Shown: positions 19,448 through 54,653 of the stretch, piece after piece
How positions within the stretch are numbered: position 1 is the stretch's first letter
Layout of the letters: each line of letters begins with the position of its first letter
Source of the DNA: Acetobacter orientalis
GTDB taxonomy: Bacteria > Pseudomonadota > Alphaproteobacteria > Acetobacterales > Acetobacteraceae
NCBI RefSeq assembly: GCF_000963965.1
Contig: NZ_BAMX01000017.1
Span: 62,001 to 126,000, forward strand
Direction: 5' to 3'
DNA length: 64,000 nt
Made by a program: the position numbers and the translations under genes
The notes under the pieces: model-generated
What the model was told of the DNA's origin: nothing
Seen by the model: the letters and a program-made list of their open reading frames with translations, nothing else
Database searches by the model: none

Positions 19448-21642
19448 TTGGACAACGCTGACGGCAAGACAGGTAACAAGACCACCGGTGGCACTTTAGC
19501 CAACCGCGTTGCTCTTGCACGACAGAAATTTGCTTCCACTTCGCGCAATTTAACTCTTTCTGCGTCTATGCTCCGCCAAGGTGGCTGGAAAGAACTCCCT
19601 TGGCGCACCCTCATACCCGGCACAGACATTGGGCTGGCCTTGGGGGTTGTGCTCCTGCTGTCTATTCTTATTATTCCGCTTCCCACATTTATTCTCGATA
19701 TTGGTCTCTCACTTTCTATTACCTCCTCCGTGCTTATTCTCATGGTGGCACTCTTTCTTGAGCGCCCGCTAGATTTTACGTCGTTTCCAACCCTGCTTTT
19801 GCTCACAACGCTTTTGCGTCTTTCGCTCGAAATTGCCACAACCCGTCTTATTTTAAGCCACGGGAGCGAGGGTACCTACGCCGCAGGGCATGTCGTTGCT
19901 GCCTTTGGTGGTTTCTTGATGGGAGGAGACGTCGTTATTGGCGGTATCGTCTTCTCCATTTTGCTTGTCGTCAATTTTATGGTCATCACCAAAGGGTCTG
20001 GCCGTATTGCCGAAGTTGCGGCTCGCTTCTTTCTCGACTCAATGCCCGGCAAACAAATGGCAATTGATGCCGACCTCTCATCCGGCGCTATTAATGACCG
20101 CATTGCCCGCAAAAAACGGAGCGAATTAGAAGAAGAAAGCGCCTTCTATGGCTCCATGGACGGTGCTGCAAAATTTGTCCGAGGCGATGCCATAGCAGGC
20201 ATTATTATTACCGCCATTAATATTGTTGGCGGCTTGGCTATTGGTGTTTTACGCCATGGCATGCCTATTAACGAAGCCGCCAGTACCTTTACCACCCTCA
20301 CTGTGGGTGATGGTCTGGTATCACAAATTCCCGCGCTTCTTGTCTCTACTGCTGCCGGTATTGTGGTAACCAAAGGCGGCACTGCTGGCTCGGCAGACGT
20401 AGCACTGGTACGTCAGCTTGGCGGCAACCCTAAACCCCTAGCTGTGGCCGCAGTACTCTCTGCCCTTTTTGCCATTATGCCGGGTTTGCCTGCTTTTCCG
20501 TTTCTCGCAATTTCAGCCGCCGCGGGTTTTGGAGCTTGGATACGCCACAAAACCCCAATTCAAGATAGCGATGGCGATATCACTGAAGCTCCTCCCAAAC
20601 CCGCAAGTGCTCCTATTTCTGACATTTTGCGCCTCGACCTGCTACGGCTCGAACTCGGCTTTGGCCTGCTTTCTCTCACCAGTGAGGACAACCCACAACT
20701 CGCTGAGCAAATCAAAGCACTCAGGCGGAATGTTGCTACAGAAATGGGCTTTATCACGCCACCAGTCCGTATTCAGGACAATATTCACCTTCCGTCTGAA
20801 ACCTACGTTATTAAAATTAAAGAAATTGAGATTGGCTCCGGTCAGGTAAAACCGGGCAAACTACTTGCCATGAGCCCCTCTGGCGGTGCCCCTGCATTGC
20901 AAGGTGATGCCACAACAGAGCCAGCCTTTGGCCTACCCGCTGTCTGGATAACTCCTGCACAGAAAAACCGGGCCACAGCACTCAAATGCACCGTGGTAGA
21001 CCCTGCAAGCGTCATTATTACGCATTTAAGCGAATGTATCCGCCAGAACCTACCAGATCTGCTGACTTACGTTGCCACGCAGTCACTGCTTGATGACCTA
21101 CCGCGTGAGCAACAGAAACTGGTTAACGACCTTATTCCCTCTCAGGTCTCGCTCATACTGTGCAGCGTGTACTGCAAGCCCTGCTCAGCGAGCGTGTTTC
21201 CATCAGAGACCTGCCAACCATTCTTGAAAGTATTCAGGAAGCGAACAGTCTGGGCCTTAAAGGCATACCCGCCATAACAGGGCATGTGCGGGTACGCTTG
21301 GCCCGCCAAATTTGTAATGCGCTTACCGGGCAAGATGGCAGCATTCCCATCATCACCCTGTCTTCAGAATGGGAGGCTGATTTTATTAAACATATAGTTG
21401 GCCCCGCAGAAGAGAAACGTCTTGCCATGCCCCCTTCAATGCTCAACAGTTTTGTGGGTAAACTGCGCGATACATTTAACGCGTTATCCAGCAATGGCGA
21501 AATTCCGGTCATTGTTGTGTCCACACCAGTACGGGATTCCATGCGCGCTATTGTAGAACGTGTTCGCCCTTCCATTTCGGTTCTGTCTCAATCTGAGATA
21601 TACCCACGCGCACGTATTAAAACCGTAGCGACAATCAGCTAA
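19448..21642 (+). pseudogene. flhA: FlhA, export-gate protein, split by a frameshift
   Basis: FlhA forms the ring of the flagellar export gate, with eight membrane helices and a large cytosolic domain. The first frame (19448 to a stop at 21277) starts with TTG after AGGAAA and encodes a normal N-terminal part: DIGLALGVVLLLSILIIPLPTF, the FHIPEP region (KGSGRIAEVAARFFLDSMPGKQMAIDADL), and most of the cytosolic domain through KLVNDLIPSQVSL. From about 21150 the matching continuation, TVQRVLQALLSERVSIRDLPTILE to VATIS at 21642, is in the -1 frame. One base seems to be missing within 21148-21160. There is no slippery heptamer or long homopolymer there, so a mutation or a sequence error is more likely than programmed shifting. 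Confidence 0.9.
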
Positions 21643-22472
21643 TGCAGGACAAGAGCCAGAACGGGAACCCTACTCCGATGCAAGATATGCCACACGACCT
21701 TACGGCTTCATCGGCACCTCAAGAAACAGAGAGCGCTCCTGCTCATGGCATAGATCTTCCTGTTGCTCACCTAACAGTAGAAGACATTTTGCGCTGGCAC
21801 TCTGTCCCTTACCCTTTGATAGACGCTTTAGCTGGTGCATCTTTAGCAGAAGGTCTGGAGCAAGTTCTTAATTTTACTCCATTGCAAGATGCTGTTTCTG
21901 CACCTTTGGCTTTTGGCGGTGCCTCTGGTTCTGGCAAAACGTTAGTTTTAGCAAAACTTGCTGCGCAAAACGCCCTTAATGGCACCCCCCCCCTTATTAT
22001 AGCCTGTGACCATAACGCAGGCAGCTTGGCCAAACTCAGCGCGTTGGTGCAACCCTTTAACATTGAGGTTGTCGTAGCCAGAACGCCAGAAAACGTAGCA
22101 GCCGCCCTTAATGCACGCCCCGAAGGCCAACCCGTACTGTGTGACCTACCCGGCATTTGCGTTTATTCTGCGCTCAGCATGTCTAAAATGATGCAAATGG
22201 TCGATATATTAGGGGCTGACCTTTCTCTGGTGCTGCCCGCTGGGCTAGATGCTGAAGAATCAGCTGATATTGGTGAAATGTTTGCCGAATGCGGTGCCAC
22301 AACTATGGTGGCCAGCAAAATGGATCAAGCAGGTCGTGTTGGCGGCATTATTGCTGCAGCAGCATGCGGGCTAAGCCTAACCTACGGCAGCTGCTCGTCT
22401 AATATTGTGGGCGGGCTTGTCTCTCTTAACCCTACAGTGTTGGCACGGCGGTTACTGACCTTACCAACGTAA
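21642..22472 (+). CDS. flhF: Divergent FlhF-like SRP-type GTPase
   Basis: 276 aa, shorter than typical FlhF (over 380 aa): the basic N-terminal domain is missing or replaced by a short acidic stretch. P-loop GGASGSGKTLVLAKLA (residues about 91-106), DLPG at the G3 position and ASKMDQAGRVGG at G4 match SRP GTPases. The 'DTYRIGA' segment is altered to CDHNAGSLAKL. FlhF sets flagellar position and number; its usual partner FlhG was not seen. The ATG overlaps the flhA stop (TAATG). A run of nine C at 21985-21993 lies in the coding region. Confidence 0.75.
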   Translation: MQDKSQNGNPTPMQDMPHDLTASSAPQETESAPAHGIDLPVAHLTVEDILRWHSVPYPLIDALAGASLAEGLEQVLNFTPLQDAVSAPLAFGGASGSGKTLVLAKLAAQNALNGTPPLIIACDHNAGSLAKLSALVQPFNIEVVVARTPENVAAALNARPEGQPVLCDLPGICVYSALSMSKMMQMVDILGADLSLVLPAGLDAEESADIGEMFAECGATTMVASKMDQAGRVGGIIAAAACGLSLTYGSCSSNIVGGLVSLNPTVLARRLLTLPT

Positions 22473-53857: not shown

Positions 53858-54064
53858 ATGAGCGACCGAATTCTTCTTACCGCTGCCACAACCGTTATTC
53901 TTGTCTGGAGCCTGCTTGCACAAAATGCACACGCTACCTTTGCAGCTATCGGTGTAGCGCTCTGGTTCCCGGCCGGCCTCTGTGCTTTCTTATACGGCTT
54001 TGTTACGCTGGCTACCTGTTATTGGCGGCATGCACCCCTTCCCTACCGATCTCCCTACTATTGA
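53858..54064 (+). CDS. Small membrane protein, unknown (doubtful)
   Basis: 68 aa with two hydrophobic segments (about residues 5-22 and 28-50). It overlaps the start of the next gene by 35 bases in another frame. ATG without a clear ribosome site. Could be a coupled small protein or a chance frame. Confidence 0.35.
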   Translation: MSDRILLTAATTVILVWSLLAQNAHATFAAIGVALWFPAGLCAFLYGFVTLATCYWRHAPLPYRSPYY

Positions 54065-54653
54065 AAGGCGGCGCATACTCGCATTGTGTCTTCTTATTGC
54101 CTCTTTTTCTATTACGTTGCTTATTTTTACCCCTGCGCCGCAAGCAATTGGGCAAATTGTAGCCCTCAATTTTGCCTGCCTTCTTGCCTTATTTGATTGG
54201 AAAGAGAACTGGCTACCCAGCTATATTCTTTTCCCAATGTTCTTGGCCGCTCTTATTTTTGGTATTTTTCTGGGTTCAAGCCAAACTGTTATTCTGGGCG
54301 CAGCCATTGCGTGGCTTATTACAGCCGCAGGGCTTGTATGCCTCTCCATTACATTAAGACGCAATTTTGTATCTGGAGATTATATGGCACTTGTGGGCGC
54401 TTGCGGTGCCAGCGTAGGGCTTGGCAGCGTCTGGACTTTTCTTCTCACAGGAGCATTTCTGTTGTGGGTAGGAAGCATGTTTCGCCGTTATACACGCGCT
54501 GCCTCCCACCATTTACCCTTCACTAATACATGCGTGCTGGCCTTGGCTTTTACATTCCTCTTTCAACACTTACCTAACCTGACCAATGCTTTCCCAGAAC
54601 TCACGCAACAGATTGCGCAAAAAGTCAGGTCTTCTTCTCTCTCTGAGCATTAA
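54030..54653 (+). CDS. Prepilin peptidase-like (A24 family) membrane protein
   Basis: 207 aa, six or more hydrophobic segments. Two aspartates at the A24 positions: LLALFDWKENWLPSYILFPMF and FVSGDYMALVGACGASVGL (the GD motif). A24 enzymes of the CpaA/TadV type process pilins. No pilin or Tad gene is in the window, so its substrate and reason for being here are open. ATG at 54030 chosen; a GTG at 53982 would add 16 residues. Confidence 0.65.
   Translation: MHPFPTDLPTIERRRILALCLLIASFSITLLIFTPAPQAIGQIVALNFACLLALFDWKENWLPSYILFPMFLAALIFGIFLGSSQTVILGAAIAWLITAAGLVCLSITLRRNFVSGDYMALVGACGASVGLGSVWTFLLTGAFLLWVGSMFRRYTRAASHHLPFTNTCVLALAFTFLFQHLPNLTNAFPELTQQIAQKVRSSSLSEH

Follow-up and report, generated by a model that had tools for sequence, protein, structure and literature searches.

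The flhA gene of Acetobacter orientalis (RefSeq assembly GCF_000963965.1) is probably disrupted by a recent, real frameshift, with a net loss of one base in the sole flhA of the sequenced strain. The window (the whole 64,000-nt stretch of DNA that was analysed) lies inside a 159-kb contig, so the break is away from the contig ends. The three features at the break are listed below in window coordinates; P0001 is the top match in the protein search.

19448-21277, + strand: flhA frame as it stands (609 aa), coding for the first 569 or so FlhA residues and then about 40 unrelated out-of-frame residues
21152-21159, + strand: junction at which the conserved FlhA frame passes to the -1 frame, net one base short compared with intact copies
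21157-21642, + strand: 161 residues encoded in the -1 frame by the 3' end of flhA (the rest of the cytoplasmic domain), all identical to P0001

No single ORF encodes a complete FlhA. The N-terminal part is in the normal FlhA frame from 19448 up to about 21154, the frame changes at 21152-21159 and the frame as written ends at the stop codon at 21275-21277; the remainder of FlhA is carried by an ORF of 160 aa in the -1 frame (21160-21642, + strand). A search of the genome with the family profile PF00771 (FlhA/FHIPEP) hit exactly two adjoining stretches, which cover 2-503 and 504-655 of the 657 profile positions; the profile is matched over its whole length but across two frames. A full-length FlhA of a relative was likewise aligned in two pieces (residues 1-570 and 570-731). 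The original prediction of a one-base shift in flhA, and of its place, is thus borne out by the ORFs, the profile pieces and the position of the frame change. No second FHIPEP locus was found in the strain's own genome (2.9 Mb, 66 contigs) by the PF00771 profile and full-length protein searches, and rescue by a second flhA copy was therefore rejected. The two frames are both free of stop codons only in 21127-21275 (148 bases). Neither the X-XXY-YYZ heptamer (21127-21275, any phase checked) nor a homopolymer of at least 4 bases (21060 to 21290) is present, in agreement with the prediction of no slippery site and no homopolymer at the junction. The only in-frame base triplets in the overlap, at 21259 and 21268, come some 100 bases beyond the frame change.

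P0001 is a 731-aa FlhA in one frame with 99% sequence identity (cluster of 44 sequences, 5 contigs), and it provides the intact copy expected for a strain-specific pseudogene. It shares 565 of 569 residues with the N-terminal part, where the four differences include the start residue. With the C-terminal part, the conserved continuation that the original prediction placed in the -1 frame as far as 21642, it shares all 161 residues. Since the two halves match one 731-aa protein, a chance resemblance is ruled out. P0002 shares 530/569 and 153/161 residues with the two parts, respectively. In the protein search with the C-terminal part, a fragment with the same break could sit within the cluster of a longer protein. 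P0001 and P0241 (an intact protein matching a second broken gene, see below) are given with no source, a label that proteins encoded by the window itself can also bear, and they could come from another strain or from the same strain sequenced again. We infer another strain because of the amino acid differences. Both are protein sequences only, and the break is therefore undatable from them.

We compared 106 other loci by tblastn using both flhA halves. Both halves were matched in 99 loci and one frame was kept in 96 of these, although several loci represent the same genome taken twice and the counts are not independent. The three exceptions (L023, L028, and L032) represent a single A. okinawensis JCM 25146 contig, in which flhA is broken at other places; a split conserved among relatives was therefore not found. 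The C-terminal part was unmatched in seven loci: L020, which matches the N-terminal part only (43%), L024 to L026, and L027, L059 and L080, which are located at or near contig ends. A junction motif that requires one continuous frame was matched in 22 of 28 loci, with no motif match in the other six. The comparison with relatives at the same position, as suggested with the prediction, showed a continuous frame there in the relatives matched. The best reading of these results is a recent indel confined to this strain or to this assembly.

L024, L025, and L026, from the same genus, each carry a single divergent FlhA with 38 to 39% identity over about 390 residues. From sequence comparison, this suggests that Acetobacter has a second type of flagellar locus. 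A near-match search of phage sequences gave nothing. Among plasmids, four records were partly matched and none reached 80% query coverage. A Komagataeibacter saccharivorans plasmid record (NZ_CP036407.1, 2-961) has a stretch 71% identical to flhA at the start of the record, with no listed gene.

The flhA gene of A. okinawensis JCM 25146 (L032 5200-5760) is continuous at the present junction, broken about 30 codons later and broken again near the 3' end. P0122, a 130-aa C-terminal piece of FlhA from another source, has its first 118 residues in one L032 frame and its last 12 in another. The second JCM 25146 break is missing from P0122. The first break may be common to P0122, because P0122 begins just past that break.

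Frameshifts elsewhere in the sequence were examined by comparative scans. In the window scan against three relatives, which was less strict than the wider one, 54/94, 55/93, and 21/88 ORFs had matches, and two, three, and two splits were flagged. The flhA split was flagged with all three relatives, as was an antisense ORF over flgG, and 53858-54653 was flagged with one. The antisense ORF is considered an artefact, flgG itself being on the other strand. In a wider scan, 320,747 bases of the strain's genome were compared with the ORFs of a relative; for three relatives the comparable ORFs were 58/463, 38/90, and 11/86 and the splits flagged were four, two, and one. Among the four splits from the 463-ORF relative, flhA was accepted and two were ORF artefacts. 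The split at C12 4166-2758 was rejected as an antisense ORF that, in the relative, is joined to the adjacent gene. A 312-aa ORF on the opposite strand overlaps another of the splits, at C12 74008-74525. When the strain's own ORFs were in turn compared with the relative (80/278 comparable), two splits were flagged, both in this 312-aa ORF.

The gene at 53858-54653 (+ strand) is also frameshifted, with the shift near 53974 relative to P0241 (263 aa, intact), the closest protein known. P0241 is matched by the first 39 residues in one frame and, in another, by 223 of the final 226. The two frames are offset by four bases at a GGCC repeat, which suggests a short tandem duplication more than a base-calling error. 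The sole named functional hint for this gene is an A24 family (prepilin) peptidase with 47% identity, and its longer ORF had no Pfam match. Confirmed frameshifts are few, yet flhA is not unique in this sequence, because 53858-54653 is frameshifted as well.

We consider it somewhat more probable that the base is missing from the organism than from the assembly only. A sequencing or assembly error, with the strain's flhA being intact, is a serious possibility that falls short of an even chance. In favour of an error, the C-terminal part is 161/161 identical to P0001, and open frames are kept by the export genes fliP, fliR, and flhB. The draft assembly consists of 66 contigs (among C1-C29, 14 are shorter than 200 bases), and the draft flhA of A. 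okinawensis JCM 25146 has two breaks, the second of which is missing from P0122 as a draft error would be, although the first is possibly common to P0122. Against an error, the A. orientalis site has no homopolymer of at least 4 bases, and frameshifts appear to be few: in the 58 of 463 relative ORFs that were comparable (24,815 aa), only flhA was accepted among the four flagged, in a scan that skips genes below 55% identity and that missed the second broken gene. The four-base offset of that gene at its GGCC repeat also does not resemble a base-calling error. By sequence, no decay is visible beyond the single shift, a picture that would suit a very recent mutation as much as an error.

FlhA could function as two polypeptides, the C-terminal part being made by reinitiation at GTG 21160 or at a later start. 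There is a GTG at 21160 in the C-terminal frame, later possible starts are present too, and the C-terminal part is undecayed. We regard this as very unlikely: no strong ribosome-binding site was seen by eye upstream of 21160, the split falls inside a folded cytoplasmic domain by alignment, and 0 of the 99 loci with both halves are split at this place. Programmed -1 ribosomal frameshifting to yield full-length FlhA is next to negligible. The flhA shift is in the -1 direction, the common one for programmed frameshifts. The 148-base overlap, however, lacks the heptamer and has its in-frame triplets about 100 bases past the frame change, and the flhA genes of relatives are read in one frame across the site; the argument made against a programmed shift in the original prediction therefore holds. 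In the literature available for searching, no report of a programmed frameshift in FlhA was found. A strain that is motile with a split export-gate protein, its FlhA being full-length or in two pieces by reinitiation or an unrecognised recoding signal, is extremely unlikely.

The preferred explanation is a recent inactivating mutation, and the change is more probably present in the organism, not merely in the assembly. Translation would leave the FlhA frame near codon 569 and end at 21275-21277. The product would retain the membrane part together with the first subdomains of the cytoplasmic domain and would be without the last 160 residues or so (the greater part of D3 and the entire D4). The junction corresponds to about residue 535 on alignment to the solved FlhA 36hw (692 aa). 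In the available text on Salmonella FlhA, Gln-498 is placed in D1 and Lys-548 and Pro-550 in D3 (PMC9431611). If the 36hw numbering equals that of Salmonella, the truncated FlhA would keep the membrane part, D1, and D2, but most of D3 and the whole of D4 would be missing. The flagellar export gate would fail and the strain is predicted to be non-motile; a loss of motility from the flhA shift is a reasonable expectation. One further gene could be affected:

21642-22472, + strand: FlhF/SRP-GTPase-like gene (TIGR03499 match 32 of 174 bits, far below cut-off)

Because its ATG overlaps the flhA stop codon by one base, this gene may lose translational coupling and its expression may be lowered by the early flhA stop.

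A general decay of the flagellar cluster was another reading that was weighed and rejected. Among the 66 non-overlapping ORFs of the window, 35 were scanned against family libraries (fliQ, flgB, flgC, fliE, and flgE are outside the families looked for). Matches above the curated cut-off were obtained for motA, fliI, flgI, fliP, fliN, fliF, flgH, flgA, flgG, flgF, flgK, flagellin, fliM, a rod-binding protein, fliO, flhB, and fliR. The motB, cheA, fliG, fliL, and flgN genes had their best match to the family yet below the cut-off. The full-length status of the flagellar genes is judged by comparative scans only.

Inactivation of a flagellar gene by a frameshift in a single strain is a well-known occurrence. 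The flhA shift is ordinary in this respect, and no new mechanism is indicated. If the mutation is real, the strain is predicted to be non-motile while its closest known relatives retain flhA, and the main relevance is in the interpretation of strain phenotypes. In A. fabarum, the available text reports that the tested flagellar mutants were non-motile and that insertions in four flagellar genes altered persistence in flies (PMC10269862).

The closest parallel is Pseudoalteromonas lipolytica variant V3, in which a spontaneous flhA frameshift abolished swimming (PMC8919034); in the available text, flhA mutations of this sort are described by the authors as rare in other species. The two cases share a single-base flhA frameshift, and loss of swimming was shown in V3. 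The V3 change is an insertion, found by resequencing and followed by complementation (PMC8919034), whereas in A. orientalis there is a one-base deficit in one assembly only. Asaia ADar (PMC6317953) and A. indonesiensis UNPADCC 01-5 (PMC13238706) are described in the available text as having lost flagellar function that their relatives keep, which resembles the situation here. These two strains lack most or all of their flagellar genes; in A. orientalis one gene is broken and the others examined are present.
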